In this document: positions 6,701 to 49,200 of the stretch, piece after piece
Position numbering within the stretch: position 1 is the stretch's first letter
Layout: each line of letters opens with the position of its first letter
From: Heliocidaris erythrogramma
Lineage: Eukaryota > Echinodermata > Echinoidea > Camarodonta > Echinometridae
Reading direction: 5' to 3'
Length of the DNA: 64,000 nt
NCBI GenBank assembly: GCA_025617745.1
Contig: CM046853.1
Location: 58,303,233 to 58,367,232, forward strand
Notes under the pieces: model-generated
Database searches by the model: none
What the model saw: only the letters and a program-made list of their open reading frames with translations
Told to the model about the DNA's origin: nothing
Translations under genes and position numbers: made by a program

Positions 6701-9700
6701 TAGTGAAGGAAGAGAAATAAGTGAAGAGGAGATGACAAAATAGGCTCTGAAAAATGTGTAAGATGTTATGGGACATCGTCTGCTTAGCCAGGACTGGTCC
6801 AGGGTGTGTCGTCACATATCTCAGCAGCGTTCGAGGAGCTCTTCAGCTGCTATATCGGGGGCTGTATTTTACCGTTTTATAATTGATAATAATCATTACT
6901 TCAAATGTTTCCAAGCGTTGAATTTGGATAACCTTGTTTAATTTATGCCATCTATGCAATAATAAGTATTAAAGTAGAACGTTGATGATTTTAAATATTG
7001 GCTTAATACTTATTATTGCATAGATGGCATAAATTAAACAAGGTTATCCAAATATAACGCTTGGAAACATTTGAAGTAATGATTATTATCAATTATAAAA
7101 CGGTAAAATACAGCCCCCGATATAGCAGCTGAAGAGCTCCTCGAACGCTGCTGAGATATGTGACGACACACCCTGGACCAGTCCTGGCTAAGCAGACGAT
7201 GTCCCATAACATCTTACACATTTTTCAGAGCCTATTTTGTCATCTCCTCTTCACTTATTTCTCTTCCTTCACTAGCGTCAGTCTTAATGTTAGTCTGTTG
7301 CCTCACTCTTAACTTCGTGTATGGTATTATTTTGATGAAAAATGCAGCGTTAAAAAAATAAAGGAATTAGTCACTTGTAAACAAAATAAGACGCCATTGT
7401 ATTTTCAGCTGTTTGCACCGGGGCATGTTCGGCGTTTCAAGAGGGAACGAATACCATCCTGCTATTATTCGGAGGGCTTTTCAATTTGAAAGTGGGGTTT
7501 ATTTCATTGATCATTGACCCTTCTCCTATGTATTTACAATCAAACGGTTTTAGCTATCAGAATCAGTTTCACTTTCCCTTTATAATGGTGTGAAATAAGG
7601 TCATGTTTAAATACACCAAACTCTTTATAATTTGATAAATAATTGCATTGCAATTACGTTCATTCATTATAGGACGTCGTCTGCTTAAGCAGGATCGATC
7701 CCGAGTGTGACGACATCAAAACATCGCTATATTTCTGGCGAATCCTCGGATATTCCAGATGCTGAGAAGAGCTTTTATTTGTGTTGTTTTTATAATCACC
7801 AGATACGCAGTTGACATAAAACTTATAAGATTGCCATCTGTAAGCTTCCCAGTTTCTAGTGATACATTAATTGCCATATTTGTGATTTTCTTTGAATATC
7901 TACTTTAAGCCAATATTAAAAATCATCAACGTTCTACTTTAAAGAAAAAAACTCGATGTAATAAAATACCCGGTATGCTTCGATGATTTTTTTCTCGTCT
8001 GAAAAGTTAAAAACAAATGCTGTTTGCAGTTCTAGAAAATAAGTCGAACAATCAACATTTTAAAATGATTACTCTACTAAAACTTTGTTTCCTACAAGCA
8101 AGATCAGATTCTATTTTTTCGTCATTTGTATGGTTGATGTAAAAATGCTAAACGTTACATAGTTACACTAAAATTTCAGTATATATTGTGTACTTACAAG
8201 TTTCTACATTATATGTCATGTCTGAGACTTGGTCCTGTACATTACTATCACGGTCAAACTGTAGTGTCTTGATTTCAGCTAACTGTTCTAATGCCGCTCC
8301 AAATTCTGCAACACAAAAACAAAGAAACTATTAACTTTTGCGTCAAGATTTTCAGTATCCAGACTTGAAAAAAGTTGAAGCCTGTCCTTTTTGTATATTC
8401 TATAAGAATAGTTTAAAATTTGTTGTATTTAATACAAACATGGTTTATGTTTTTTTCATGATTTCACTGATACTGGTGGAAAATGCAGAACATTCAAAAG
8501 CTTATAACTATGAGGGCACTTGCCTACCTCAACTCATGTTCTTTTTACAATACAAAATTGATGAAGTGTTTCTGTCTGTTTGTACAGGATATTACGTTCG
8601 TCTATAAATATTATGTACTGTAGCTATGCTACACAATGGAACTACACAAAATAATGAAGAATCTGTTAAAAAGTAATTTATCATAATTTTGAGTCAGCTT
8701 TTTTATCAATTAATTAATTACAGGGAATCTGTTTACTCCAATCAAAGTATATGTATCAGTGATCTGAGTCATTTAGAACTCAATTTGTTGTGGATCAGTG
8801 GATAAGTCCCTGGACTGTGAACCACGAGGTCCGGGGTTCGAATCCCACCGCAGCACTAGCGTCCTTTGGCAAGATGTTAATCTACATTTGCCACTCTCCA
8901 CCCAGGTGTTAAATGGGTACCCGGTAGGATGGCGAAAGTTAATGTCCTTTGCTTTAGTGTGCGCTTAACAGGCGACTGGCTGGAATGCTCCCCAGGGAGT
9001 GGAGAATGTGCATACACTGTGTACGGGCGTGCCAGAATCCAATCACCGGGGTAATAATATGATTGTTTATATTCTGCGCCTTGAGCACTCTAAGAGTGGA
9101 TATGTGTGCTATATAAGTCTCCATTATTATTATTATTATTATTAATCTGTACATAATGGAAACTGAATGATAGATTCTCGGGGCCAAAGATTATTGTAGA
9201 CAATAAGACTTCAGTTCAGTTATCCTAGCATCTACGAATCTGCTCTTACATATACTCCTTCTCTCACCTTTGTCATAGACGAGTTTCATGACATTCTCCT
9301 TGAAGTCTGCGACATGCTGATAGGTCTTCAGGTAATCCTGTACAACAGGGTGATCAGCTATGGATTCTATGGATTGCCTGTTCATGACCAAAATAAATAA
9401 GGTTACCAACATGAATTCAAAAATGATGGCCGGTATTCTCGAAAGCCGCCTGACTTTAAGCCAGGCTTAAACCCTGCCGAAGTGCGCAGATTTTGGCCAC
9501 TGAATTATGGAGTGCCAAATGTCACCCTCTTAATCCTATACAATTCACCATAGTTCTGAAACTAAATGCAAATACAAATACTTGTCCTGATGAAATCGAT
9601 TTCTGATGTTCATTTCACACCAAAACATAATTTTGAAAATTTATGTTGTTACATAAATGTAATAATCTATATGGAACTTAGGGGTTGACACTTGGCCTGC

Positions 9701-18700: not shown

Positions 18701-21700
18701 TGGCATGACACTGCACTTGAAAAACCAACACAAAAAACTGCACATGGGACACTGGTATACAACTTGACAAAACCTTCACAGAGTCAATGTTAGGAAAAAT
18801 GCTCACGACACACTACAAACACAGCTTTTGTGGTTGTTTCAGCCAGACTTGTTCTTACCAAGCGCGACTGGATCCGAGATGTCTGCTGTTCTTGTTCTAC
18901 CATCACCACAGGGTCCACCTGGGTGTTCTGGTCGGCCATCTCAGGAGGTACCTCCTCCTCCATCTCTTTGTTATCTTCTTCCATTCTTTCTTCTTCTTCT
19001 TGGGGTACGGATTCCTCCTTCTTTTCATCCTCCTCTTTTTCAACCACTTCAGGCTGATGAAGCATGTGAATGCAATTGTTTTTTAGAAGCAATGTGATAT
19101 CGATTTCATGAAATATAGATGAGAAAAGTGGTACCATTCTAATTGTTCTATGTCAATGAATACCATGAAGTGTTGCAATTTGCTGCTTTCTATGATTCAA
19201 TTATTTCATTGACTATCTACTATGAAGCTACACAGTACCTTCATTTCACCACTGCTGACTACAAGCTATAAATTGAAAGTGAATTGAATGGTATGGTTAG
19301 GATTTACATTTAAACAATGGCTTACTTTCCACAAATTCTGTACAGATATTGACATGCAATCCACATGATACAAAAGTATGAGTTTCTTTGCTATCCATAT
19401 TTACAGAACTTCATGTATCATCTCTTCATCCCGAAACCAAATTACATGCATTTTCTTATTCTGAAATGATCTCTGAATCTATCCTCTATATGGACTACTA
19501 ATATGTATCAGTAAACTAAACTTCGACAGGAATCGGCCATGTCTATTCTATCAACATAAACATGTGTGATACCAATGCATTATCACCCAAAACAGACAGT
19601 GGAAGACCTTAAAAAATAGAATGTACATAACAAAAACAATTTGTATGGGTAGTCATGGTGTTCCTGTCGCAATTCATTTTGAACCAACTAACTAGAGTAA
19701 TTTAACTGACCTTTTCCTCTTTGATAGGTTTCACCAAGTCCATGGGGTTGAATTCTCCTAGGTACTTAGCCCTCTGTTCAGGGGTCAGGGTCTTCAAGGC
19801 CTTCTGCTCCTGCTTTATGGCATTCTTGGTCTATGAGGAAAAAGGAGGGAAGAAACAAAGAAGGAAAATAAGATGAAGGGAGAGACACAGGCAGACAGAC
19901 AGACAGAATAATTTGGATATTGTTTCCCATCTAGATGCATTCACTTCTGTTTCTTTCACAAAAGTATACATTGTCATTCAATCTCTACACTCTTTTGCAG
20001 TATATATTCTACATCACCACAACCCCTTCTAAAAAAAGAGTCTTCCTAACTTTCAAACTGGCAACAAGTAAAAAACAAGATGAATGCGACTGCGTCTCCT
20101 ATATGCCTCCGCCTAAATTCAGTTGATGGCTCAAACTGTTCTAGAAATATTTGATAACGAGGCTAAAAACCAGTAATTCCATGTAATTTCATGTAAATTG
20201 ACCTCTGTGACCTCTGAACTTTGACCTACCTACCCCAAAATCTAATCAGTTCCTCTTTCTATGGGGATGCATACTGGTACCAAGTTTGAAGTTCTCACCT
20301 CAGATAGTTCTTGAGATATCGCGGTAACGGTGCTAAAAACCAGTAATTCCATGTAATTTCATGTAAATTGACCTCTGTGACCTCTGAACTTTGACCTACC
20401 TACCCCAAAATCTAATCACTTCCTCTTTCTATGGGGATACATACTGGTACCAAGTTTGAAGTTCTCACCTCAAATAGTTCTTCAGAAATCGCGGTAACGG
20501 TGCTAAAAACCAAGAATTTCATGTAATTTCATGTAAATTGACCTCTTTGACCTCCTTACCCCAAAATCTAATCAGTTCATCTTCGTATAGGGAAACATAC
20601 TAGTACCAAGTTTGAAGTTCTTACCTCAAACAGTTCTTGAGATATCGCGGTAACGGTGCTAAAAACCAAGAATTTCATGTAATTTCATGTAAATTGACCT
20701 CTGTGACCTCTGACCTTTGACCTACTTACCCCAAAATCTAATCAGTACATCTTCGTATGGGGATACATACTAGTACCAAGTTTGAGGTTCCTACCTCAAA
20801 TGATTCTTCAGATATCGCGGTAACGAGAAGTGGGACGGACGGACGGACGCACAGACGCACGGACGCACGGACAACCCGAAAACATAATGCCTCCGGCACC
20901 CACCTTCGGTGGGCGGAGGCATAAAAAATGAGAACAACAGTTATGTAAAGGGCAATTTCATTAATTTTAATAGATGTCTTTATAAAAGTGACAAAGCACT
21001 GATCTTAAAAACCAGGAAGATCAATATGTACTGTTTCTTCATGCTGTTTAACAAAGCTCTCCAGCTGTACAACAGCGCTGTCGGCTTCCCTCTCAGCCTC
21101 CTTCTCTGCCTCCCGAGCTAAGTCCACTTGCTGGATGAGGGTATGGCGCTCCTGAGAGTCAAGCAAGATAAAAATAATGCAGGGTCAAAGGTTTTTATAT
21201 AATAGATAATAAATATACAAATACTACGGTGTAGCTCAATCTCAAATATCCTTTATACTTAGGGAGACCATCCAAATTCATCGACCATTCCTGAATGCCG
21301 CCAGAATAGTCCCCTAAAAATCCATTGTCTTGCTCATCCCCATTCTGGCTGCGTTTAGAATGCGGTACTTAACTCCGCGCTATGGAGGATTACATCCGGA
21401 ATGGGGTCAGAATGGGGTCAGAATGGTGTCAGAATGGTGTCAGAATGGGTATGTTCCGGAATGCTTCGAGAATGCGCCACTCAAGCCAGAACACGCTATT
21501 GTTCACAGTACAGCAAGGAAGAGCTATTCAGCCAGCCGGCGCGGCCGATCGCTGATCTGTCTTTCTCATGCCGCGCGCGCCGCGATATCGATCGATGCCT
21601 CTTTGAAGTGATCGCGGACATACTTCGGAAAGCAAATGAAAAACACTCGAACCCGTCTAATATTATTTGGGGGAAAAATAACATGATTCTGAAAACAAAT

Positions 21701-24700: not shown

Positions 24701-27700
24701 TCGCGATCGCCGCTCTATTCTGGCGTCCTTCGCTTACATTGTTTTATTATAAATAGACGGGTTGTCACCATAAATAAAGTATAAACATGAAAAAAGGTTA
24801 TATACACATAACTTCACTGATTCTCATCATTGAAGTTATTTAAGGGCAACAAAATATATACATACGTTAAACTTCCGCAATAATTCTTGCGATCCATACA
24901 GTTCCTTAAAAAATCATTGCCGTCTTAATATCGGAAGAAATATAAAGCGCATTTGGTGCGCAAAACTGATTATCATTTGTTAATATTATCAATCATATCG
25001 TGCATTTTTCATGTATTGATCATTCTCATCAGTGAATTTATTTAAGGGCAACAAAAATATACATCGGCCGTCATTTATTTCATCTGTCTATACTGTAGTA
25101 ATATTAATAATATTATTTCTTTGGGCAATCGTCCAAATCTGTATCATCTAGCGAGTGTAATTTAATTTCATCTGATGATCATTACTTTATTTCATATGAT
25201 GAGCTTCAATTTCTTTCACCATTAAACTTCCACATAATTCTTGCGATCCATACATTTCATACAAAAAATTAGCTATTTTTACGTCTTAATATCGGAAGAA
25301 ATATATAGCGCATTTGGTGCGCAAAACTGATTATCATTTGTTAATATTATCAATAATATCGTGCATTTTCCATGTATTGATCATTCTCATCAGTGAATTT
25401 ATTTAAGGGCAACAAAAATATACATCGGCCGTCATTTATTTCATCTGTCTATACTGTAGTAATATTAATAATATTATTCCTTTGGGCAATCGTCCAAATC
25501 TGTATCATCTAGCGAGTGTAATTTAATTTCATCTGACGATCATTACTTTAATTGAAGATCATTACTTTATTTCATATGATGAGCTTCAATTTCTTTCACC
25601 ATTAAACTTCCGCATAATTCTTGCGATCCATACATGTCATTAAAAACAAAATCAGCTATTTGTTGCGTCCTAATATCAGAAGAAATAATGCGCATTCTTT
25701 CACCCGGCGATCATCACTTCGTTCAATCTGGAAATCGTATTCTTTTTTTCATCTAACGGTCGACGCTGTATCTTATCTGGCGACCGTCGCTTACAGTATT
25801 CATAAATAAAGCGAATTCACTATAGTATATGGCATCAACATGAATCTTCAAAAATAATTCTTCCGATCCTTACAGTCCAAGAAAGGGAAATATTTTGAAA
25901 CAAGATTATACATGTATCATGCCGGCATGATCGATATCGCAATAAATGAAGCGCCTTCGATCGTGCTGCGCATCCTTGGCTGTCCCGTTCATGATTTTTA
26001 ATCACCGCATTCTGGGACCATTCCAGAATGACCCCATGCCATGTCGACAACAAAGGGACATTTCCAGAATCTGTATCATCTAGCGAGTGTAATTTAATTT
26101 CATCTGACGATCATTACTTTAATTCAAGATCATTACTTTATTTCATATGATGAGCTTCAATTTCTTTCACCATTAAACTTCCGCATAATTCTTGCGATCC
26201 ATACATGTCATTAAAAACAAAAATCAGCTATTTGTTGCGTCCTAATATCGGAAGAAATAATGCGCATTCTTTCACCCGGCGATCATCACTTCGTTCAATC
26301 TGGAAATCGTATTCTTTTTTTCATCTAACGGTCGACGCTGTATCGCTGTCCCGTTCATGATTTTTAATCACCGCATTCTGGGACCATTCCAGAATGACCC
26401 CATGCCACGTCGACAACAAAGGGACATTTCCAGAATGCTCCCAGAATGCTTTCAGAATGCCCCTTTGTTCGGCAAACAAAAGGCGCCGATCGGCCGGAAA
26501 TTTGAGAAGGCGACTAGAATGGGGATATTCCCGACCCATTCTGGAATGCTTGATGACCCCATTCCGGATACATTCTGGAATGGTCGATGAATTTGGATGG
26601 TCTCCCTTATAACCCTATTAACACCTACATATTTGATTGAATTGGCAATTTACAAACCCCACCCAAGTTCTTGAATGTTGTACAATTCGTTATGATTTAG
26701 ATTAATATTTCTTTCTTCCCGAGAAAGAAACAGATAAATACATTGTGAATTGTATTTCCATAAATTATTTTTCATGCCTAATTCAACAATGAAAAGAAAA
26801 ATAATATCACAACATTTTGAATTTTGAAATTTGCTTATGAATATAATTGTTCATAAATTTGTTCATAGCGAAGGTGTTCATAAAGAAATTTAGTTGGATA
26901 TGTGTAGCTAATACTCTTCACCAGCATTAGGTTGACAGGATCGGATCTGACCCAACACTGACCTTGTTCCATTTCTCCTCTTTGACTTGGATGTGATTAC
27001 TAAGTTGTTTGACTTTCTTGTGGTTCTCCTCTTGGTTGGTCTTGATCGTTTTCTGTAAGCCCTGGACAAAGAGCAGAGCCTGGACTCAACAAATAAAAAA
27101 GAACGGACTAGCATGAGACTAGTCCAGTATGCAATCTCTGAATTTGAACAGAGCCAGGACTGAAGAAATAAAAAGAAGAACATACTAGCATGTGACAAGA
27201 CCTGCCAATAGGTCCTGGGCTATGAATTTAGCCTGGACTAAACAAATAAAAGATAAACAGATTGGGATAAAAATAGACCAGGCTGAAGGACCTGTATGAT
27301 TTTAATAATACATGAGCAAAAGACTTGACCCGGCGGCGGCAAGGCCTCGACTAGGAACAGAAACTTGTCTGACTAAATACGGAGACAAACATACAGTTGT
27401 ATTAACACAGGATTAGATCAGGCTGCAGGCCCTGGAATATGGACAGAGCCTGGACTCAACAAAAACAGCGACAACCAGTATAAGCATTTTACTCTGATGA
27501 GTTCAAGATGAAACGCATTTCAGTATTCTTGGACTTTGAAGTACTAATGAACTCCTTACTCATCTACGACAAATTAAAATAAATATATAATAAATGAAAT
27601 GAATAAAATAATTTCATCTGCTCATGAATAAACAGCAGTAAAGTGAAACTATGAAATACTCAAATGATAACTATACCTCTTTCCTGTACTGCTTGAAAGC

Positions 27701-28225: not shown

Positions 28226-31200
28226 ACATAACCTGTATATTGCGCTTAATACAATGTTACTAAGCGCCGAAGTACATGTACATGTAGTATTATTACACTA
28301 GCTTTAGCCCAGCTGCCCCATAAGGCACTGAAATTTATGATCAGTGATACCATTCTGTCACAACAGTCGATAAATTTGTTTGTTTGTTTTTTTTCCATCT
28401 CGGTAGGACATTCTTTTTCTCACCTTTATTGATGTTCTTGGGCTTCGGGGAATCGAGGACTTTAGGTGTTCCTGGTGGTGTAGGTTTAATGGAAGCATCT
28501 GTTGTTTGTCTGCTTTGGAGATCCTGTGAAGAAACAGAATTTTGTTGCTGATCATGTGACTTCCATGGGGGGAACTATGAAAGCAAGGCAGGCAGGTATA
28601 GCCAAACTCCGCGGCAGAAAATTGTTTACCACTGGTATACATTGACTGGAATGATTTGCGAGGATCAACGCAATTTTACAGGTTGAAGTATGCAAATTCA
28701 TTACCCTTGTCGGTATCCTTGTCAGAAAGAAATTGCCCTTGGTATTTTTTCTTATACTGAACACCCCCATGACACCAAGGGTGTTATGCACTGGTGAGAA
28801 TCTGGGTATAGCTGAAGGATCTGATTCAAAACCTGCACTGTAACTGAGGCTCTAAAACAACAGAATCAACGGAAAAGGACACAAGCATCTGCTTTGGATA
28901 TCAATTAAGCACGCATGACTCACTCAGTCGGTCTTGCAATTGCCAATTTCAGGCAAGCTTTTCATAACTACACAATCACAGATGAATGATTGAGTGTTGC
29001 CCACGGACGACCTTGCTAAAGGTCTGATCAATAGTTATAAAACCGTGGCTTTCTTGATCTAACTTTGCTTTACCTGTTTTCTTATTGATGATGGCTGCCT
29101 ACTTGAAAGGCCACTCTTGAGCTCTCTCTGTAAAGACAAATGCAAAGAAAATGGTTAGTCAGACAATGTACATATATACCCTTTCATACCTTACACGACA
29201 ATTAACCAGTCTAAAAAGCTATTCCCATTTCGACTAATGACGATATTACGGTGAGGATAACTATACATCATTCCCAAATTGATCTCCTCAAATGTATGTG
29301 CAAAAAGTATTGATATTGGATAGTGGTATTGCGATGCCATCGATCCAAGACATTGATACTGGAAGCCAATTAGCAAATCAGTAAGATGGGTCCTTCAATA
29401 TCGATATCAAATACCTTTTCTACATACATTTGAGGAGATCAAGTTGGGAATGATTTATAGTTATTGTTATAATTAACAATATCAGTGAACCTGGGCCCCA
29501 TTTCATGAAACTTTTTATTAATAACAAGTTTGTAAAATCAGCACCGATTTTCTTATTTACTATATAAATCTATATACCTACCTATTATGCCTGTAGTCTT
29601 GACTACGGGACCCCTTCGAGAATTATCACACATGTGTCACAATATTGTGCGCACCCCCCGTAATCCTATTGTCCCCTTCGCCACTCACGCGCGTCAATAC
29701 GCTACGGCCATCTTCCTCTTTTGCGAGCAACCCCAAGAAGAAACATGTTGCTTGCAAGGAGCGGGGAAGGAGGGAGGGTCATAGGTAGGTATATAGATTT
29801 ATATAGTAAATAAGAAAATCAGTGCTGATTTTACAAATTTACTGCAATAAATCATATATACCTACCTATTATGCCAGACCAGCGCCAACTCAAAGACCGG
29901 GAGGCATGTTTCGAGCGGAAGGAAATAGGATTACACCAAAGACTACAAAGAAGACACAGCGGCCTTCAAGGTGGCTGACGCAAACAAAGCTTCACCTGCG
30001 GGAATATCCCTAAGGTAGCAAGAAATGAAGGAATTGGGCGAACGCCAATAAGCAGCCTTCAAAATATCAACAAGCGCCACACCTTGAAACAGAGCCCAAG
30101 AAGTGCTGACACTACGAGTATCATGAGCACGAGGCTTACTGTCGGATAAAAGAGCCTCTGTGCCAGCGGCCCTAATAGCTTCAACGATCCATCTAGAAAT
30201 GGAATCAAGAGAGGCAGGAGAAAAAGGCTCTCTAGTGATCAGGAACAACTGATCATCCTTACGATAAGACTTAGTCTTATCAATATACCATTTGAGAGCC
30301 CTAACAGGACACCAAACTTTGTCCTCACGCACCGAAGAAAAGTCAGAAAGCGGACAAAGAAAAATCTCAACAGGACCGGAGGTAGCTGTCTGATTCTTGG
30401 CAACGAAAGAAGCCCTAGGAATCAACCTAACACCTTTTCTCTCCCAGCGAACATGACCAGGAGTAAGACAGAGCATGAAGAGTACTGCGCCTCTGCCCAG
30501 AGGCAATAGCTACCAAAAAGAGCGTCTTAACCGTAAGATGATGAAGCGAAGCTTCACCTAACGGTTCAAAAGGAGGTTTCGCCAAGGCCTCCAGGACCTT
30601 AGGCAAACTCCAAGACGGCACTAACTTAGAAAACGAAGGTCGTTTCAGAAAGAACGAACGAATCAAACCACTTAGTAGCGGGGAATTGGAAATCCCCGAA
30701 CCATCCGAAAAACCCGAATGAATGGCCCCGATCGCCGAACGGTAGCCTCGGATAGTAGAAATAGATCTCCCTTTGTCAAATAACGAGATTAAGAAATCCG
30801 CAATTGAACCAATAGGAGCCTTAGAAGGGGTTTGATTTCTCTCTTTGCACCAAAGGAAAAAGACCGAGAGACGGGAATTGTAAATTTCCCTAGTAGAAAC
30901 CCTACGACTGGACATTAAAAAGTCCGCGGCTCTATCAGAGAGACCCGACTGTCTTGCAGATTCCCTGACAGGGGCCAAGCAGTCAAATGAAGAGACTCCG
31001 GATTGTGGTGAAGAATCCCCGATAGGGGCTGTAACACCAGATCCGCTCTTAACGGGAGAACTAACGGTTGAGCCCTTAGAAGGCTCATAAGTTCCGGAAA
31101 CCAATTCCTCCTGGGCCAAAAGGGAGCTATTACAAGCACCCTCGCCCGATCTTCCCTGATTTTCCGCAAGACACGCGGAATCAGTTGGAAGGGAGGAAAG

Positions 31201-34200
31201 GCGAATCCCTGAAGGTTCTCCCAGCTGAGGGAGAAAGCATCAAGAGCCCATGCTCCCTGATCGCGAACACGGGAGCAATACTTCGGCAGCTGGTGATTTA
31301 GCACCGACGCAAATAGATCCACTTCCAGTGGACCTAGGCAACTGCGAATGCGGCAAAATACCTCCGGATGGAGCATCCATTCCGATGGAAGATACCTGCC
31401 CCGGGACAGAAAATCCGCAATGAGGTTTTCCCGACCGGGGATGAAAGAGGCCACGGGTGTGATTGCCATGCGACGACACCACCTCCACAGCTGAGCTGCT
31501 AGGGCATTCAGGGCAACCGAACGAGTGCCTCCCTGCCGATTGATATATGCCGCCACAGTAACATTGTCCGTGAGAATCAGAACCGAACGACTGAGAAGTC
31601 GACTTCTGAAATGGAGCAAGGTCAACAGAACTGCCATAAACTCCAGGACATTGATATGAGGAAGAGTCCCAAGATGAGACCAATCCCCCGCAACCGTGCT
31701 GCCGTTGCAGTGTCCTCCCCACCCCAACCGAGAGGCGTCCGTCGAAACCGATATCGACGGAAGAGGGGCAGAGAAGGACCTGCCTCGCGCGAGAAACACC
31801 TCGCTCGTCCAACAAGCGAGAAGAGACTTGATCTTTACTGGTACTGGAATCCAGACCAAAAGAGAGTCTTTTCCCGGCTTGAAGAACCTGAGGAGATGTC
31901 TCTGAAAGGGTCTCATGAGGAGCCGGCAGTCCTCTAAAACATCGACTAGACTGGCTAGATAACCTAGAAACTGAAGCCACTGTCTGGCCGAGACTCTTCT
32001 GGCCAGCAAGAGCTTGCGAGCCGCAGAGACAATGGTGAGAATCCTGTCTCGACTGGGCCGAGCTAACTGATTCCTTATGTCTAACACCGCCCCCAAAAAA
32101 CTGGGCTGCGAGTGGGGACTAACTCTGACTTTTCCCAATTTATTAGGAAACCTAAGTCTTGAGTAAGAGAGACGAGCAAACGAGTCTCGTCCAACAAACG
32201 ATCGCGCGACTCCGCAAGGAGAAGCCAATCGTCCAGGTAACAAAACAACCGCAGGCCGCGACGCCTCAGAAAGGCCGCTAGCACCGCTACAACTTGAGTA
32301 AAAACCCGAGGGGCCGGGCGCAGCCCGAAGGGAAGAGCCCGAAAACGATAAGTCTCCGAGAGGAAGGAGAACCCCAGAAGATCGCGAGATGCGCGATGAA
32401 TGGGAATGTGAAAGTACGCGTCCTTGAGATCTATCGAGACCGCGTAGTCTTCCCTTTTGATCAACGGAAGAATGGAGGCAAGAGTCTCCATCCGAAAATG
32501 AACCGGAGGAATAAATTTGTTTATCCTTTTTAGGTTCAGTATCAAACGAAGTTTTCCCGAGCGCTTGGGAATAACAAATATTGGAGAAAGGGAAAGAGAC
32601 GGCCTGTCTCTTACCCTTTCTATAGCCCTCTTCTCCAGAAGAGACTCGATCTCCTTTGAAGCATGAGATCGAGACAGGGCAGACATGGGAGGTGACCGAA
32701 TTCTTATAGCCCCTCCGGGGAGCGAAGCGCAAAGATCTATGAAGAATCCGTCTCGCACGACGGAGAGAACAAACGCGTCCCCGGAGATGGCCTCCCAAGC
32801 GGGGAGAAACGCGTGAAGACGGCCACCTACCACATTCGGTTGAACAAGCGCTCGGGAAAAAACATCAAAACCCAGGCTTGGCCTTCTGCGAAGCCATCGC
32901 CTTACCACGAGTACCTCTCGAAATGCCCCTGCCACGACTCCCTCTCCCACGAGAAGGAGCTGGCTGTGGCTGAGGAGGCGGGACCCTAGACACGCGACTG
33001 CGTTGACCCGAAACGGGACCAGCAGGTCTACGCTGAACAGGGGCCCGCGTTGGCTTAGAGCTAGTGTGAAACTGCTTAGTCATATCCGAGATCTGCTTAC
33101 GCGCATCGATCTCTCTCTGAAAAACCGTAGCGAATTTACCACCAAAAAGCGAAGGACCCCGAGACGGAACATCTCGGAGAAGTTGAGCAATGCCCGACTC
33201 TCTAACACCCAGTGCCGAGAGAGCCGAGGTCCTGCGACGGAACGTAGCCGAAGCAGCTGCGGTGGAAAGCTGCGACCACTGCAGACAAAAAAGAGTATGC
33301 AACAGGTCGTCAATAATCAGCTTGTCACCATCGGTAACATTCAACTCCTCCGCCCTGGACCTAAGGTCGGAGAGAAACCCTTGAAACGCCGACAAACGCA
33401 TCCCCGACCTAACCTGGTTTTCAATATTAGACCAGATCTTATCCTCCGCCTTGAAAGCGGCGGAGGTAAGCGGATTAGTCGCCCGTAAGCGACGACCAAC
33501 CTCCAAAATCTCAGGAGACAGAGTCTTAGCCTTAAAAAAGCTGTCTTGGTCCTGAGAACAAAAGGCAAAGGCCTTACCCTTGACCGCATTAGAGCGCTTA
33601 ATCAACAGCGCGGCCTCAATGCGGTCATATTCCAGCTTGAAAACCTCCTCAAGAGCGATACCCTCAGAGGAATCCTGCTGCTTAAATTTCCAACGCGAAG
33701 TCGAACCCTGCGCGCGGGTTGACTGAAATTCAGGGAGATATTTGGACAACAAAGCAATCGCTTCTACCCCGCGAAGAGCAAGCGATTGAGACTCCGCCTG
33801 CCCAAGCGATTCGGGAACCGAAGCTTGAGAAGCCACATCCGAATCTGGTTCCACCCGAGTGGAATGAGACAAAGGAGCACTAACAAAGGCCTCCGCAGGC
33901 AGAGCCCCGCATGGTTCAACAAAAGTCTCCTCGCCCGGCGGAGCCCCAAGGGCCGCGGGAATAGGAGGCACATGCGAATCTGACTCAGACAAAGAGGAAT
34001 CAATCACAAAAGGCTGATTAGACTCAAGGCGAGATCCCTGAATAGGGACAGAAGTCAGGGTTGAAGTAGCCGGTACAAAGGACCAACCCTGATTCTGAGC
34101 AAAAGCCCGCATCATACTGAACATGTCAGCTTGAGAGGAGCTAGCTGGGTTAGCCAGGTCAGACGGGCAAGAGGCCGGCAAAGCCTTGCCACTTTTTGCC

Positions 34201-37200
34201 TTCTTCTTGGCCCTTTTCTTGGCTGGCTCGACAAAAGTCGTAGCCGAAACCCTTTTCTTAGAACGCTTAATCGGATTCGTTCGGGTCCCCCAAGCCTCTT
34301 CGGAAACACAAACCGATCCCTCCGCGGAGGGGCGTTCACTTCCCATAAAGGGATTGGAGCGCTCATGGCGTAAGCCTAGAGAATCGCCCAAATCACCCAT
34401 ATTGGCTAAGCAAGAAGATGCAGTAGCCTTGGGTTGGGAGCTAAAAGCTCCCAGTGCGTGGGCAGACCGAGATGACTCGGTATGTGCCCGATGACTACTA
34501 AAGGCGTGTGAACCCGCTATTGGACCGCTCGAAAGCAGCAATAGGGGAGCACAAGTAGTCACGCACTCAGGTGAAAACACCTGTTGCTCCGAAGAGCGTC
34601 CATAATTGTTAGCTCGAGCATTCCCATTAGCTGGCAATGTAGACAGCCCAGGAAGTACTCGTTCCCCCATATGGCGTTTGCCGGGGGCTAGGGTTTGAGA
34701 ACCCAGACCAACATGGACTAAGCCCGTGGGCTGCCCTGCAGTAGTGGGGCGCGTCTCCCCTAACGGATCAGAGCGAGTGAACGCTACCGTACGGGAAACA
34801 ACAGCCCCCCCCCCTCTGGTCTCAGCGACCGGGGGATTGGATTCGAGATATCCAAACCACTAGAATCTGACGCCACCCACCCCGAAACCACGGGCTTCGG
34901 AGTTGACAATCCCGATTCAGTTAACGCCACCCGTCCCGAAGCCGCAAGCTCCGAGACTGGCAAACTCTGCAAGGAAACACCACTAGGCAACTTACCCTTA
35001 GCCCTCCTCCCTCCCCCGTGTACCGCAGTACTCGGGGGAGTTCTGGAAGGCCGAGTCGTCTTGCTAGACGACTCTTCGGAAGAAGCAGGTCTCCTTGACC
35101 TAGCTGCTTCTTCTTCCGAATCCATACCACTGCAATAAAACAGACAATAAAGTATACTTTTTCAAATTAAGAAATACTTCAACTGAATGCAGTAAATAAG
35201 GGTAAAATTATTTGGGAGATACGCACTAAAGAAATTTTCACAGCCTAAAAACCGTAAGAATAAACGCCGAACCCGAAGGCTCGGTGACAAACGGAAACAC
35301 CCGCAAACACGGAAATATCTACGTGGGGCTGACCGTGAAAGAGAAAAATAAATGCCAAGAAAGGGAATCAAAAAATCCCTTGCAATCGGCAAGAGTGACT
35401 AATAAAACACAAAGTACTATAATCTAAACGAATATAGGTACCTAAAAGTGCTTTAACTATGTGAAAAAGCGCACCAAAAAGATACTATACGACCTGATTT
35501 CAGGAGCGCTGTGACTATACGTCCTAACTCGTCGGGGGCGAGCAAGAAAGAGGAAGATGGCCGTAGCGTATTGACGCGCGTGAGTGGCGAAGGGGACAAT
35601 AGGATTACGGGGGGTGCGCACAATATTGTGACACATGTGTGATAATTCTCGAAGGGGTCCCGTAGTCAAGACTACAGGCATAATAGGTAGGTATATATGA
35701 TTTATTGCAGTAAATTACAATAACTGTTATAAGCTACTGAAATCTTTGCATCTGATTGGCTGAGAGCAAATTTGTCATAGATATGTGGCAGTTGTGACTA
35801 ATAACAAGTTTTATGAAACAGGGCCTAGGACTTGCGCTTAACTTCTCTATAAAAAAAATTAAAGTTATTGTTTAGGCTGTCAATGTGCTAAAAAGAGATA
35901 CACCTGTCTCTATGAGGGAAAAAACACCCAAGAGTTTTATTCTGGAACATCTGAATTTCTATAAAGAAATGTTCAAGGGATTTGAGATAAAAGAGCTGCA
36001 TCACATGTAATACATTTGGATACACAGTACACTAATTTGTTATTAGCTAAAATACACAGATTGTGCTACATATACATCTACATGTATCTCACAAGTTTGA
36101 ATTTTAGTAAGAAATATCTCTATTTTTCTGAAAGATCAAATAAACCCATACATAAATGAAAACCCTGAAAGACCATTTTGATTGACTCTCTATATTTAGG
36201 GAAGCTTTTAATCAAATCATGTTGTATCATGTTGTATATGGTTTCTCTTTATTCACAACTAAAGTCATTAAAATTGTCTTTGAAACTTGATTTTAATTTG
36301 ACTTCATTTTACTTTTATACATTCTATCATTGCATAAATATTGCTGATGTGATTGCAGAAATTATATCACACCTTGCAAAAATACAGCAAAAACATTGAA
36401 AAACAAAACTGCTTCAATAAGAATAAAGCTTTGCCACTGCATACTAGACAGCTTTAAATCACACTGAATCCAATTTTATTATCTTTTTTTTTAATTGGCA
36501 CAAAATAATACTAATAATTCTCAATAGGTATGGATATACATGTATGATTAATGATATGAAAACAATGTGTGCGGTGTCTTCAGTTCTTAAAAGGGGTACT
36601 GTAAAGCTCGAAAATGTTTAAATCACCATTTCCAAATGTTGTACCATAGGATTTCACATAACAAAAAAATGTTTTATTTTCTGAAAATAACATAGCTGTT
36701 TTTCTCAGGATTTCCAGTCTAAAAGTGAAGAAAAAAAAATACAAATAAGGGTCATTTCAGGGTAATTATGAACTAGCTTATTGCTTCTCTATGTTGTATT
36801 CTTGAATTTCAAACTGATTTGAGCTGCAAATTGACCATGACTTATAAGACCATGTTCAGCAGTTAATATCTTGATTTAAAAAAAAAACATATGGAATTTG
36901 TTGTACTGAGATAGTCAACTTACGTCAGAAAATAGAGGAAAACTAATTTCAAATTTGGAGACTCTAGGAGTGCAACCCCAAAACCCTACGCCTAAAAACT
37001 TAAGAATTTGTAGGAATGGTCAAAAATCTAACTGTAAGCAAAGATTATTGTGTCAATTATACAAATTAATGTCAGGAAAATCCAGTACTGCCATTTCAGT
37101 AAGTTGGAGAAAATGTCATTATGTTGTACTCTACATTATTTCTATTTGTTTATTTATATTGTCAACAATTTCTTTTGGTCCAGACTATAGAATTTATTGA

Positions 37201-40200: not shown

Positions 40201-43200
40201 GACTGCAACAGACATTTTGATTTATTCCTTTTAAATCAATCCAATGTGCTTTTCCATAGTTAACACCAGAGCAATCATGAAAATATGTCAAACAATGTTT
40301 TAAAAAACAATGTGGACAGATGGAAGACATGAGAAGATTGCTACACAAACAACTGTTTTGCTGAGGAAGTTTTGAAAACAACTACAATTGTCATCATGAT
40401 GAAGTTTTCAATGAGCAAAATGAATGCAAGCACTAAAATTAAATATGGATAGGCAAGATTTTGTCACGTAAGTATATCCTTGATAATCCAGAATAAAAAG
40501 TTGTAATGTACATGTAATTACGATCAAGAGTTGTAATTATACTTGAACTCAAAGAAATAAATGTTTTTTTAATGTGCTCAAGGTCCACAGAAGTCAAACG
40601 TGGCAAACATCATATCCAAATCATTAATGTACATATACTGTAGGTGAAGTGCACCCCTAAAGAAATAGGCCTACAGCGAGCTCACGGTTCATCCTTCCAC
40701 CTCCTTATCACGGCAGTTGCGAATCGATCATTTAGCCTTCATGAAATTGATTTGTATTTTGTACTCGCTGTCAGATTTGCCCAAGGCATTTGCTCTTGAT
40801 CAATCAACTCACAGTTGATATAGAAACCTGAATAGCTGTTTTAGTCCAATAAATAGAACTTCACAGAGCCATTTCAATCATATAAGCGGTGATGCATGAA
40901 AAATCAATTTTGCTCATGACAAGTCCTACCACACATCAGAACAAGTATAATGCAGCACCTTGCAAATATATCGATGGTGGGTATAGACTCTGACAGACAT
41001 ACAGTTTGAATATATCCCACCGATATGATGAACTGTTTTTCTACATTTGTGTTTGTCAGGGCCAAAGACCAATAATTTACATTTGACAGCTTCTGACAGG
41101 TTGCCTTTTCCTTTCCTCGACATCGAGGTCCCTGATTGGTTGCTTTTGTTGTACGTTGCCATGGTGTCCCCTGCCATCTTGTGTCAAGTCAGGTGACCTC
41201 ATGACCCTACCCTGGTAACCCTGCACCCTGGGGGTCTCTCTCTCTCTCTCTGTATTTTTGGTGCTTTCTTCCTCTCTCTCTCTCTTGCTCTCTCTCTCTC
41301 TCTCTTTCACTCCCTAAATCTCTCTCAATCTCTCTCCCCACCAATCTCCCTCTTTTCCATTCTCTCTCTGGCTCCATCATTAATATACTTCGCGAGGAAC
41401 ACACATAATGTCACATTGTGCTTTGGATCAATAGTTTACTACTGATTTTTTTTAAATACAAATTGCACAGCTTTGTTAAGATTTTTATTGCAAGTCGCAT
41501 CATATTATGATTACTACAGTCTACATGCTCCAATTATTTCTTCTCCAATTTGCTTCATGTTTACTATTTCTTTTCAAAGTGGTTAATTAACAGAAGAAAA
41601 AGAAATGTTCCCACATTATACATAAACATGTAGCTATGTCAAAAAGTATTATGAAACTACTGTACATGTAAGTTACACAGAAAACTAGAGCTGATACTTC
41701 TGAAATATATTTCCATTAAACTCACCAAAAGGATAATGTTAATTTCTATTACATTTCATAGCCTAAAAGGTTTTCATATAGATATAAATCTCTTGTTTTA
41801 TATCTGAATAACTTGTCAGCACAACGACTATCAGAAAATCAATATATCTTTGCCTACATCACCACTTCAATAGTAACATTGCTGATTTTTAAACAAACAG
41901 ATAAAAGGCTATGAATTCAGACAAACTAAACTTACACAATGATGACATAGGTCAGATAATAACCTCTTTAGGATGGTAATACTGGAAGATATGTAAAAAA
42001 AAAAAAACATGTCTCATACTGCTCGTGAAAAGACAAAACTTGCCTCCATTCAGTCTATGCACACCTTTTTTTTATACATAGAATATAATGTACATGTATG
42101 TGAAGGAGGCCTATTAACTACTAAGAATTAGATTACAAGCTCATATCAATGAAGTGATGATTACGTGGATTTGTGCACGTTTAATAGCAAACTAAACAAA
42201 TGCAGAATATGACATAGACGCAGAGAAGAAAAGAGTGAGCCCTTTCTGTGCCATGGAAACAAATCAGGGCCAAAAATTGAATGATGAACTAGATGTTTTG
42301 ATAAGAAATAGGTCCTCCTTTCGTCCAAATACGAGAACACATATGTGGATTCTGAAGGGGGAAGGGTACGTGCGGGAGGTACCTACATGTAAGCTACTTA
42401 TTAGTAAGTAATCTTACCTAATTAAAACAAAATGATACAGTAACTAGAAATTTAATTCGTCATGAGGACGAATTAGGTGGTCTGTCTTTCAATTTGTACG
42501 ATCATGATTGTAATCAGGATGATCATAATAATGGGGAAATACTAAACTGAAGATAGGAAGTCAAGAATGGCACAAATGGAGATGCTTTTTCAGGACAGGA
42601 ATGTAGCAAAATGTGTGAAACGGTCATTGTAAAATGATTATGGTGATGATGATAATGGTGATGATTATGATGATGAAGATGATATAATGATAATTTAAGA
42701 TAATTGACTAAGCCAATTTTGAGAAATTGTGATATCAAACAGGACTATTTGATATTGCAGGATACTTGGGAGATAAACCCCATAGCTCTAATACACGACA
42801 GGGAATCAAAATTGCCATAGAGTTGTACACAAACTACTGCACACTACTTTCTAATAGACATAATATGGAAAATAAGGCAGTTTATTACATGATTTGTGAT
42901 TTTTTATGTTACAATAGTCGAAGAGGATGGTAAAATGACAGGCAAAAAGAAGCAAAAAAAAAAAAAAAAAAATCGGCCCCGGGGATCGAACCAGGTACCT
43001 TGACCATGGTAGTCATGTGCTTTACCGATAGACCAGAATATTTCCCATAGAGATAACACGTAAACGAAAACGGGATTCTCAAATCACATTTTGTACTGAA
43101 AAATTGGGCATGATCCCGACATCTGATCAAAAATTGGAGACCACACTTGTAAAAGCTTATAGTCTCAGCTACAACATATTAAAATCTGGAAGAAAATAGA

Positions 43201-46200
43201 CCAAAAATAACTGAGATACAGCTCAGAGAACGATGTCATGTAGATTCATGATTCGAAAAAAAATCATCTTCCATAGACATAACACGCAAATAGGGAAAAT
43301 TCTGACATGGCATCTTGCATTGAAAATTTCAGTGTGATGACGTCATCAAAATGAAAAATGGTGGTGACTGATCTTGTAGAGAATTGTCTCAGCTATAACA
43401 TATCAAAATTTGGAAGAAAATCGATCACCTATTACTGAAATATTATCAAATGAATACAAAAAAGATGACGTAATTTTTTCAAAATCATTTTTTTGAGTTC
43501 ATATGCAAATATGATGACGTTAGAACATGCGATCGGGAAAAATTCTGCATGAATTCCAATCTACAACTCACAGGCTTTCATAATATGTACAGAAATTTGG
43601 GGGTTTCCTTGCGTTCTGACGAGCTATGGCGGATTCTAGATAGGCATGTTTTTACCACTTTTTACATTAGAATGCCCATTGACGTGCGCACGAATTTCAA
43701 AGTTTGACGCGCGCGTACGACATTATGGAAGGTCGAGATTGACTGTAAATAGTTGGAAATTGTCAAGAATAGTGTCAGGAAGACAAAATATGCGAAAAAA
43801 CGGCGTTTTTACGTTCTCTACGCGCTGTGTGCGCGCATAACGCGCGCACGGACGCGCACGGACAGAAAAATTTAAAATGCTTAAAATGTCCTGAACAATA
43901 CTCGAATTTGATTAAAAAGTGATTTTGAGCATTTTTAAAATTTGACGCGCGCGTACGTGCGCGTCAATATGTGCGCGCGGATTTTGATGACATTTTATGT
44001 TGACCCTTGACCTGAAGTTAATGTATGTCAAATATGGTTCGTTTTTGACGACTCGTTATGAAGATATGATTGATAATGTGATTTCACAAAATGGCGCCTG
44101 GATGACGTCACGATGACCTCATGACCTTGAAATAGATACCCAAGCTTGATCTGATATGTCCTCATGACTGTAGAGATTTTGATAAAATTTGACTCAGCCG
44201 ATATTGAGGAATCATTGTAACAAGAAAGTGGTGGAAAAATAAAAATAAATAATAATAATAATAAAGAAAATTCTGACGAAATTAAGAGGTGGTCTGTCGA
44301 CTACGACAGACCACCTAAAAAGCTATTTTCGGCATGGTTCTTCCCAATGTTATTTAATGTGGGACAAACCATAGCTATTTCTCTCACGTAAAAAAGAATA
44401 ATCAACAAAGTCCATATGAAGAAAATTCACATTATTTCATTCAACAAAAACATATTTGCAGTTCTATGAATAATGAGAAGGGTCAATGGTGTTAAATACA
44501 GGTATCCGTAATCTCATAAAAGGGTAGGCCTGCACATTTATCATCTACATCTACAACAATAGGTACGTTCACACGTAGAGCGATAGCATCGATGCTATCT
44601 AGGTTTCGAGACTATTTTGGTCATGACCAGATAGTTTTAAGACCAAACGCTGTCTGAACGCAGATAGTCACGAGATAGAAGCGAGTTGGCAGCGAGTGAG
44701 CGATGGATATTCACGAGTGGGTGATAAAAGCAAGTCGATCATGGCCTGTCTGAACGTACTGGAATAGTTTCGAGACTTACATAGCATCGATGCTACATGT
44801 ATGTACATAACTTGTGTAATTAACACATGAATAGTACATTTCAGCCTGGCAGGCACATTCCACCGCGCTTGTGACTATTTGTAATGTGAGCACAATCGCT
44901 GCTTCACTCGCTGCTATCTTCACTCACAACTATTATAATTCTGTCTGTTTCATGTGGTGCTATAATATTATGTAATGTATGGATTCATGTGATGTACCCT
45001 CTTCCCTACTTTTTTCTATTATTATTCTGTTTCATCTGGTGCTGTAATGTAATGTATGTATTCATGTGATGTAGGGGTAAGTAGGCTACTGTGTATAACT
45101 GTGCGGTAAGGGAAGGGGTTTTTTATTAGGTGGTCTGTCGGTATCGACAGATCACCTATTAATTTTGTCCGATTTTTCTTCTTTATTTTTATTTATTTTT
45201 AAGGCAAATTGTTGTGGCCACCAAATCTCAAAATCGGCCAGGTCAATATCATCGAGTTTCATGTCACGTATGAGGTCAATCATGGACATGGTCCATTAAG
45301 CTTTTGGAGGTCATCAGGTCATCGTGACGTCATCAAGACGCCATTTTGTAAATTTACAAGATCGATTATATCTTCATAATCGATCATCAAAAATCAACTA
45401 TATTCACACCACATAAACTTCACATGACGGGTCATCAAGTCATGTCCTCACAGGTCATCTAGAGGTCAGCACGTGTGCGTACGCGCGCGTCAAAATTTAA
45501 AAATGCTCAAAATCACGTAGGATCAAGTCTGCACACGTTTCAGGTCATTTTGAGCATTTCAAAAATGTCCGTGCGTAAGCGTCCGCGCAAGTCGTAAATA
45601 ACGTTAAAACGCTGTTTTTTGGATTGATTTGCAATCCTGACACTTTTCTTCATCATTTCCATCAACTTGGAATCAATTTCAATCAATAATAAGGTCGTAC
45701 GGGCGCGTCAAAGTTCAAAATCGATGCGCGCATCTATGGCGAAAATAACGTAAAAACGTTCAAAAACATGCCTCTACAAAATTAACTCTAGCTCTTTAAA
45801 TAGTCCATAAACCCCCAATTTTTTTTCATCATCAGGTAGGGTATGAATCATAGATTTCATTTCATGTATCATTTCACCCTTATAAATATTATGACGTCAT
45901 CAAAATGGCGCCAGAAGTCAAAATTTCCAATTTTCATGTTTTGACGTCATCACATTTATGCAAATTTGGCTCTAGATTCGTAATTATTGGTCGTTTTTCG
46001 CCCAGATTTTGCTATGTCATAGCTGAGACAATTCTCTACAAGATCAATTATCACGGTTTTTCATTTTGATGACGTCATCACAGTGAAATTTTCAATTAAA
46101 GATGCCATGTCAGAATTTTCCCTATTTGCGTGTTATGTCTATGGAAGATGATTTTTTTTTCGAATCATGAATCTACATGACATTGTTCTCTGAGCTGTAT

Positions 46201-49200
46201 CTCAGTTGTTTTTGGTCTATTTTCTTCCAGATTTTAGTATGTTATAGCTGAGACTATAAGCTTTTATAAGTGTGGTCTCCAATTTTTGATCAGATGTCGG
46301 GATCATGCCCAATTTTTCACTACAAAATGGGATTTGAGAATCCCGTTTTTCGTTGACGTGTTATCTCTATGGGAAATGTTTTGGTATATTGGTCAAAGCA
46401 CTTGCCTCTCATTCCGGTGACCCAGGTTCGATCCCCGGTGGGTCCATTAATTTTTTTATTTTTTTTTTTGCTTCTTTTTGCCTTTCATTTTACCATCTTG
46501 TTCGAGTATTATAACATATACAATCACAAACCATGTACTAAACTGCCTTATTTTGCGTGTTTTGTCTATTGGAAAGTAGTGTGCAGTAGTTTGTGTACAA
46601 CCCTATGGAAATTTCTCAAAATTGGCTTAGTCAATTATCTTCAAATTTTCGTCAGTTATCAGTCCTATTAAGGTCAAGTTTGTGCATTTTTTTCAAGGTC
46701 ATCAGATTATTGTGACGTCATCCAGGCGACATTTTGTAAAAATCAACTTATGGTCGTATCTTCATAACGAAATGTGATTTCTCTTTCATATTTGGCATGG
46801 TTAAGGTCACTGTCATTGCAGTCATGGTCATCACCATTATCATCACCATCACCATCACCATCATCATCATTATATCATCATCATGATTATCATCAACATC
46901 ATTATCAACATAACTGTCATGATATTCATGATGATGATGATGATGATGATAATGCTGATTAACATCAACTTCATTATCATCATTGCTGTCATGATGATAT
47001 AATGATCATCATCATGATTATCAACATCATTATCATCATCACTGTCATGATGATATTCATGATGATGATTATTATCAAAATCATTATCATCATCACTGTC
47101 ATGATATTCATGATGATGATTATCAACATCATCACATCTTCCAATGACCGTTTCACACATTTTCTACATTCCTGTCCTTAAGAAGCATCTCCATGCGTGG
47201 CATTCTTGACTTCATATCTTCAGTTTAGTATTTCCCCATTATTATGATCATCCTGATTACAATCATCATACAAATTGAAAGACAGACCACCTAATTCGTC
47301 CTCATGACGAATTAAATTCTAGGTTTGTTTTTGTTTTCCTTCTTTTTATCTTTTTCTTTTTATATATATGATATGGTCTTTAGATATTGATTTACATGTG
47401 CTTACCAGATAATAACGTGCATGTGTTTTATTTTGGTATAAGATTGGAGTTCAGTCAATTTTGACATGTACAAGGTTTATTTAAAATTAATTATTTCAAC
47501 ACATGTATTTGCTAGTTGATTGTATTATCGACATATTACAAATGAATTGTTATTGTGTTATGTTATGTTGATTTATGAAGACAAATAATATATTATTCAA
47601 AACAAAAACTTCACATGATATGAACTCTGTGCACAAACTTCCGCGCGTTTTGACCATGCATATATACCACTTATACTCGGGTCACCGTGTGTGGCGCAGT
47701 AATTATTGTTTTGGCAGCGAGTGAGCGATGAATAGTCACGAGTGGGTGATAGAATCAAGTCGATCATGGCCTGTCTGAACATACTGGAAATAGTTTTGAG
47801 ACTTACATAGCATCGATGCTATGTACTACGTATGAACATAACTAATAATTGTTGAATTTTGTCTGCATTCCAAGAGCGACATTTTACCTTGTCTTAGGAA
47901 AATGAATAGGCTTTCCTTTCCATTCTTCTCCTCTTTTTCTTCCTCTTTCTCTCTTTCTGCTCCCTTTCTTCTCCCTTTTTCTTCTCCCTTTCTTCTCTCT
48001 TGCCTTTCTCCTTTTCTTCCTTTCTCCTCTTTTATTTTCTTTTTGGAGGGGGTCGCAACTGGCCCCACCGCCCCACTTGGCCCACTGGTTCCCTACGCCC
48101 AATCCAATAATTACATATGGATGAAAATTGGACAATGGACCCTTGAATGTTCATTCACAATTGTTGGTATACCTAGTGGCACACAGAAGGGGATAAACTG
48201 CAGTCAAATGCTAAATTTTAAAAAATTCCATACCAGCAATTCCACAAAAATAAAAATCTTTCATTTCATTTCAACCTGAATAAATTCTTCAAGAGTGTTT
48301 AATCGATATACAGGGTATGCACATAATTACCTCTAGCTCATCTATCCTTGCCTGGAGTGTTTCTCTTACACTCTCTAATTCTTCCTTGTGCTCTTCTCTC
48401 ACTTGCTGAAGGGAGACCTCAAACTGCTTCTGAGAGTCTGGTACCAAAAAGATACATTATACAATTCAAAATTTGATATCACATATATACAATTTTCTTT
48501 GATATTGGGTGGCATTAATAAGTTAACATGAGACAGTAAGAGAGAGAGAGAGAGAGGGAGAGGGGGAGAGGGAGAGGGAGAGGGGGAGAGAGAGAGGGAG
48601 AGGGGGAGAGAGAGAGTGGGAGGATGGAACAGAGAGAGGGAGGGAGGGAGGGAGAGAGGGAGAGAGGGAGTTATTGTACATAACTTTAATAAAATTTTAT
48701 TAAGAGAACAATAAAAGAGAACAAAATGAAACAAAATGAGACAAAATTTTACAAGAGATTTACACATAAGGATATACATGTACATGGGAAGACCAGGGGT
48801 GGTATTCTGAGATTTATTTTATCTTGATTTTAGTGAAAAGATTTTAATTGTCATAACAAATTTCAAATTGCAAAATTCCATTGGTGTTTGCGCAGATGAA
48901 TTCCGCGTAAGCAGCCACTTTTGCGCAGGTTAAAATTACAAATTTTCGAATTTTCGAAGAATACTGATATTCTTTTGTAAGTATGAAGGCCTTTCAGTAC
49001 ATGAAACTGTCCAACAAAAAACAATTGGCTTCATGGACAATAGGAGCATTCTTCACCCTTGACACCCACACAATGTCCTATAATGATCTCATTTATCGTT
49101 CATGATTTCCTAACCTTCCCTTTGTTTTTTTACTTCACACATCTAGTTCTCAACTCATCTGAATGAAAATGATGTACGGGTAAAACACTTTGATCTTTTA

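Follow-up and report, generated by a model that had tools for sequence, protein, structure and literature searches.

The 64,000-nucleotide stretch of the Heliocidaris erythrogramma genome considered here (the window; positions 58,303,233 to 58,367,232 of contig CM046853.1) carries a DIRS1-like retrotransposon, one of the group that combines reverse transcriptase (RT) with a tyrosine recombinase (YR), which occupies positions 29530-35715 on the minus strand (6186 bp). Judged from its sequence, this copy is a recent insertion, and the family to which it belongs expanded recently. The junctions between inserted copies and flanking DNA are directional: the ATT of the donor is kept at the 5′ side of the element, and the target's own trinucleotide lies at the 3′ side, both in the window family (family A) and in a related family (family B). 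Taken together, the identity of the element, its youth and the directionality of its junctions make up a reading in which we place considerable confidence.

Structure of the element and its insertion site

A first-pass annotation of this DNA had bounded the element at 29531-35714, which is right to within one base; comparison with a flush empty site and with sister copies fixes the exact ends. In the following, positions are those of the window, and a slash marks the point at which the two ends of the element meet.

29530..35715, minus strand: whole DIRS1-like element, delimited by sister copies and by relatives of the target miniature inverted-repeat transposable element (MITE) that show the site flush and empty
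35547..35715, minus strand: 5′ terminus (in element orientation), starting ATTTACTGC; its conserved repeat part, 35547-35697, is one arm of a 151-nt, 100% inverted repeat
29530..29721, minus strand: 3′ terminus, consisting of the repeat plus a right extension and ending TTTTACAA; its conserved repeat part is 29571-29721 (from repeat comparison)
29781..29875, minus strand: internal complementary region (ICR), 56 + 39 nt, which reproduces the circle junction TTTTACAA/ATTTACTGC (from repeat comparison)
29493..29529, no strand assigned: left part of the older target MITE
35716..35828, no strand assigned: right part of the same MITE, with MITE matches running across the join

The conserved parts of the terminal repeats (29571-29721 and 35547-35697) are complementary at 100% over 151 nt. 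The ICR, 95 nt in length, is bipartite: its half at 29781-29836 is complementary to the left outer end (29530-29585) at 55/56 positions, with the mismatch at 29545, and its half at 29837-29875 is complementary to the right outer end (35677-35715) at 39/39. These halves abut without overlap, so that the encoded junction, in element sense, is simply the 3′ end followed by the 5′ start; the earlier proposal that each half matches one outer end and that the two meet at the predicted circle junction is thereby confirmed. Overall, the repeats differ at one of 246 compared positions (151 + 56 + 39, some repeat bases being counted in two comparisons), and an exact inverted repeat of 151 nt together with two matching half-junctions is not a product of chance. 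The DIRS components also stand in the order first described, with gag, RT, RNase H/methyltransferase (MT) and YR following one another on the minus strand, the names RNase H, MT and YR being given from position and motifs. The description of the copy as nearly whole holds for this structure (repeats, ICR and domain order) and fails for its coding content, the frames of gag, pol and YR being broken.

The element interrupts an older MITE. When the two flanks were joined and used as a query, the best 40 of 3062 candidates were full-length MITE matches at 90-94%, all 40 of them continuous across the join, and the MITE loci that were fetched are gap-free at that point in 8/8 cases, which provides the flush empty site. 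Insertion into this MITE thus left no base gained, lost or duplicated, that is, no target-site duplication. A second MITE-like unit, recognizable as an inverted repeat with 55-nt arms that are 91% alike, lies at 29257-29464 and adjoins the MITE into which the DIRS element is inserted.

Inverted terminal repeats, an ICR at the circle junction, an RT and the lack of a target-site duplication place the element among DIRS1-like retrotransposons. As in the published members of this group (Piednoel et al. 2011, PMC3266345), there are inverted repeats, a two-part ICR, an extension on the right side only, regions assigned to gag, pol and YR with overlap of the latter two, an ATT start and no target duplication, and both the length and the conserved repeat fall within the published ranges of 3974-6283 bp and 31-304 nt, respectively. 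PAT-like, Ngaro and VIPER elements are likewise retrotransposons with RT and YR, but they are described as having split direct repeats, and Ngaro and VIPER as lacking an MT (PMC3266345, PMC6681497). A PAT-like or Ngaro identity was considered and rejected, the end repeats here being inverted rather than split and direct, and accompanied by an ICR. DIRS-1 of Dictyostelium shares the ICR, the inverted repeats, the YR (putative here) and a high copy number, but is described as clustering at centromeres and within copies of itself (PMC5633606). In the present genome, flanks abut family A sequence at 7/49 5′ ends and 4/45 3′ ends, and two of the seven, at loci L085 and L119, are odd cases; in L119, two elements stand face to face with their 5′ ends 6 bp apart.

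Directional junctions in two families

All 47 independent 5′ junctions of family A start ATTTACTGCA and thus carry the ATT of the circle, the search anchor for these ends having included position +3, without +1 or +2, and having allowed mismatches. This set derives from 49 matches, from which L010 (a family B copy) and L085 (an internal false match) were removed. At the 3′ junctions, the three bases that follow a clean TTTTACAA end are ATT in 12/45 cases and another trinucleotide in 33/45; five further independent 3′ ends, of 50 in total, lack a clean TTTTACAA and were left out of this core count. The two ends of single copies tell the same story. From 42 5′/3′ pairs, eight were skipped where an end was not found exactly once, and two of the remaining 34 were removed (pair 4, with a doubtful 3′ end and a cross-join match to its own locus, and pair i3, whose flanks are the same as those of i2). 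In the 32 usable pairs, ATT lies on the 5′ side in 32/32; the target core differs from ATT in 21 of these, none of which is reversed, an outcome with p ~1e-6 if the result from either strand were equally likely.

The target bases themselves are far from random, with a pyrimidine at +2 in 45/45 and at +3 in 43/45 sites, and A at +1 in 24/45, which suggests that likeness to the donor matters but that identity is not needed. At these same 45 targets, A occurs at +10 in 26 cases, which is the donor's base at that position and perhaps forms part of a recombinase contact.

Uninterrupted relatives of the target sites indicate where the variable trinucleotide comes from. For eleven joined flank pairs, an alignment spanning the join was obtained, and seven were taken as convincing (the window copy and copies 6, 12, 14, 17, 32 and i1), the alignments of copies 4, 13, 33 and i4 being weak, gappy or self matches that were set aside. 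Even among the seven, similarity to the relative is just 86% for copy 6, and the alignment of copy 17 is interrupted by a 4-nt gap that lies five bases to the left of the join. In six of these seven empty sites, the target core is something other than ATT. The trinucleotide read at the 3′ junction recurs exactly in the uninterrupted relative for five of the six; the exception is copy 6, whose relative differs at +1.

Similar comparisons can be drawn for family B, which was encountered adjoining L010 (5′ start at L010:2303, 3′ end at L144:4396) and which has inverted terminal repeats of 155 nt that are 96.8% alike and an ICR encoding TTTTACTG/ATTTACTGC. ATT is present at 22/22 of its 5′ ends (20 fetched beyond L010 from the best 40 of 1432 candidates, plus L010 and L185). 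Its 3′ ends carry ATT in 15/36 cases and another trinucleotide in 21/36 (Fisher p 2e-6); this set comprises the best 40 of 1781 candidates after two antisense false matches and L185, a 5′ end, were dropped and repeated flanks were merged. At L196, a 5′ start comes immediately after a family B 3′ end and has the same orientation, resembling a tandem joined by a circle junction.

Family size and age

The assembly searched comprises 1.064 Gb in 26 contigs. At a site that is asparagine in the COX1 of animals, the COX1 gene on contig C24 carries AAA, as expected under the echinoderm/flatworm mitochondrial code, and this gene is followed by a tRNA-Arg gene, an arrangement typical of echinoderms; both features agree with an echinoderm host, perhaps a sea urchin. 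With the 151-nt repeat as query, the best 40 of 745 candidates all matched at 100% (two of the 40 being the window copy's own repeats), and with an 801-bp pol query, the best 40 of 1470 candidates, located on 15 contigs and including the window copy, all matched at 100% after rounding. Only the best candidates were scored, and copy numbers are accordingly lower bounds. Over about 3.7 kb, 25 copies show a mean pairwise difference of 0.48% (range 0.16-0.87%), and the window copy has three private substitutions and two private indel events, private meaning unique where at least 80% of copies share another state. These few substitutions and the single mismatch in the compared repeats agree with the earlier view that the copy is recent; near-identical copies elsewhere in the assembly are many, and the family does not consist of old, divergent relatives alone. 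Identical repeats in many copies might also be expected of an old, inactive element whose repeats were kept alike by gene conversion, but this is hardly credible: the pol and YR regions of the 25 copies likewise differ by a mean of 0.48% only, and copies are dispersed on 15 contigs with different flanks.

Some variety exists within the family. At 5′-end loci, the 1.7 kb on the gag side falls into classes that are ~99.5% (L003, L021) and ~97% (L005, L007, L009, L014, L019) identical to the window copy. The loci L056 and L058 are near-identical in the 801-bp pol query and only 74% alike in their gag stretches. Copies that vary in these ways could be mosaics produced by template switching or recombination. 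Two C2 copies (L008/L009 and L014/L015) lie 19 Mb apart and have both flanks in common, representing either an insertion duplicated with its surroundings or an assembly repeat. A scan of IMG/VR with the RT piece gave 43 pattern matches, none of which was confirmed as a relative.

Coding regions and frame breaks

The coding regions of the window copy are as follows.

32865..35125, minus strand: gag region, with a frame break near 34.8 kb beside a C-tract; the open reading frames (ORFs) 35125-34784 and 34859-32865 lie in different frames, and there is no Pfam match
30915..33079, minus strand: pol, comprising RT and putative RNase H and MT-like domains, with a frame break near 32.1 kb
29943..31239, minus strand: putative YR, overlapping pol, with GQRR, HDTR and Tyr blocks, a sub-threshold Phage_int_SAM match and a frame break near 30.5 kb

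The RT is identified by an RVT_1 match above the curated Pfam cut-off (E 7e-21) and by matches to solved reverse transcriptases in the PDB. RNase H and MT have sub-threshold Pfam matches and are named from their position and from motifs that presumably denote these domains. Likewise, the GQRR, HDTR and Tyr blocks are read directly from the sequence, and we take them to be YR motifs; the profile match of this region is weak and sub-threshold, and a sequence search of the PDB with YR returned no match. Single-sequence AlphaFold2 models of the RNase H/MT piece and of the C-terminal YR piece each have a pLDDT (predicted local distance difference test) of 35. The gag region is assigned as the first ORF in the expected place and has no profile match; Pfam, NCBIfam and the PDB together yielded little for YR, RNase H, MT and gag.

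Gag, pol and YR each contain one frame break in the window copy, and the upstream part of the YR frame, where it overlaps pol, has an additional stop at 31240-31242. Among 29 sister loci selected by pol, the pol stretch is open in 20/26 that are testable and YR in 22/27 (27/37 testable across all non-window loci), and both are open in 17/29. A YR frame with both motif blocks occurs in 22 of the 29; the HDTR...Y block is present in all 22, these frames having been chosen by motif. In 13 of the 22 (among L032-L060), the YR frame extends to 974 codons and covers most of pol, a frame that is broken at 31240-31242 in the window copy. Of 13 testable loci, five keep the 5′ gag stretch in frame and eight, the window copy included, do not; a 3′ gag stretch is open in 18/26 testable loci, the window copy among them. 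From the pol and YR counts, open frames are present in the family, and the window copy is not open as assembled; with its frames in this state, it would be mobile only with proteins supplied by sister copies.

It is unlikely, in our estimation, that the breaks are assembly errors and that the window copy is open in the animal. The position of the gag break beside a C-tract and of the pol break near homopolymer runs would suit such errors, as would the loss of frame in the 5′ gag stretch of 8/13 testable loci, but the same assembly leaves pol and YR open in most testable sister loci, and the YR break lies outside any long homopolymer.

A proposed mechanism of integration

In the published model of DIRS replication, RNA would be copied into cDNA, the missing ends would be rebuilt from the ICR and joined, and the YR would insert the joined molecule without target duplication. 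The cDNA circle is held to be double-stranded before recombination, and the mechanism as a whole is described in a 2017 review as proposed and not fully proven (PMC5633606). Recombination has been modelled with a 3-bp target of the same sequence as the circle junction (PMC3266345), whereas the 3′ cores here match it in the minority of cases given above (12/45 and 15/36), with a fixed direction. We treat identity of the target trinucleotide as a feature of the model and not as a trait that defines membership in the group.

We lean towards an exchange that is completed by the YR on one fixed strand at the junction step. The sense strand of the donor would be cut between CAA and ATT, the target would be cut between −1 and +1, and the other strand would be filled by replication or repair. 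Such an exchange is favored because two-strand exchange over a 3-bp overlap predicts that about half of the junctions with unequal cores would be reversed. More tentatively, the donor could be single-stranded: its joined ends might pair with the 95-nt ICR of the same strand, forming a near-perfect double-stranded recombination site at which the YR would exchange the junction strand alone, in the manner of an integron. This folding of a single-strand donor on its own ICR is the boldest step of our interpretation, and the 95-nt pairing supports it. The idea of a single-strand donor also fits the title of a study by Malicki (2020). In integrons, cassettes recombine through one strand, with resolution by replication, and integration by IntI conceivably parallels the process proposed here, with a tyrosine recombinase, a folded donor strand that serves as a double-strand-like site, and exchange of one strand (PMC2727003). 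That system is bacterial and uses attC and attI sites, and thus the likeness is mechanistic and the window element is not a member of it.

The main rival to one-strand exchange is a complete repair bias, in which a double-stranded circle would undergo two-strand YR exchange over a 3-bp overlap, and mismatch repair with a fixed bias (for example, nick-directed) would then mimic one-strand exchange. The double-stranded circle of the published model (PMC5633606) speaks for it, as does the lean of the target towards ATT, which indicates that likeness in the overlap matters. We nevertheless regard it as rather unlikely, since the bias would have to be complete, with no reversal in 21 pairs, and since spacer heterology halts the second strand exchange in Cre/Flp-like systems (PMC2727003), yet heterology is present in 21/32 pairs. 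Alternatively, the cuts in the two strands could lie directly opposite each other and be joined flush, with no overlap, the trinucleotide being just a target preference. The ends do add up to the junction exactly, without gain or loss of a base, and the empty sites are flush, but immediately 3′ of the cut the target is similar to the donor, as expected of an overlap. We also know of no tyrosine recombinase that cuts flush, and consider this possibility very unlikely.

Several further points weigh against exchange of a single fixed strand or against the reading as a whole. The same asymmetry would arise from two-strand exchange followed by directional mismatch repair, and according to the integron literature, heterology in the spacer can also lead to rapid reversal of the first exchange (PMC2727003). 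Families A and B belong to a single genome, and their ends are similar. In a published table of 28 elements, 26 of them with trinucleotide junctions, the end differs from the circular junction in seven and the start in one (p 0.07), a lean in the same sense as here, but this one start mismatch, in AcasDIRS1, runs in the opposite direction (PMC3266345, Table 3). Complete copies in Xenopus are reported to have TTT at both ends (PMC9210276). Such a pattern could hardly be distinguished from a core that is fixed at the two ends, and variable 3′ cores may thus not be general. Within the present data, the sample leans to young copies because only the best candidates were scored, YR is open in just 5/10 testable repeat-selected loci, the profile matches of YR, RNase H and MT are weak, and the predicted folds are useless. 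A literature search found no paper on a junction rule of this kind; subscription papers were largely outside its reach, and the rule may be in print.

Other features of the window

Outside the element, positions 6067-7908 form a 906-nt inverted repeat with five mismatches and a 30-nt spacer, and a spacer-like stretch recurs in inverted orientation just outside the right arm; this could be a young fold-back or an assembly artefact. A large imperfect palindrome of ~4.9 kb at 42449-47318, whose arms are 75-96% alike in pieces, may be an old fold-back element. Direct repeats in tandem and higher-order arrangement, with copies of 92-281 nt, occupy 20049-20825 and 24921-26436. A tRNA scan of the 64-kb window found none.

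Implications

In a genome where DIRS elements have recently expanded, the window copy itself is ordinary in kind. A fixed asymmetry between donor and target at the junctions can be read from any genome that holds a young DIRS family. If one-strand exchange from a folded donor is correct, the ICR would act both as the template for the ends and as the other half of the recombination site, and the consistent way in which the core is inherited at both ends would be the genomic footprint of this process. Should the asymmetry hold widely, it would separate one-strand from two-strand exchange and would give the ICR a second job.

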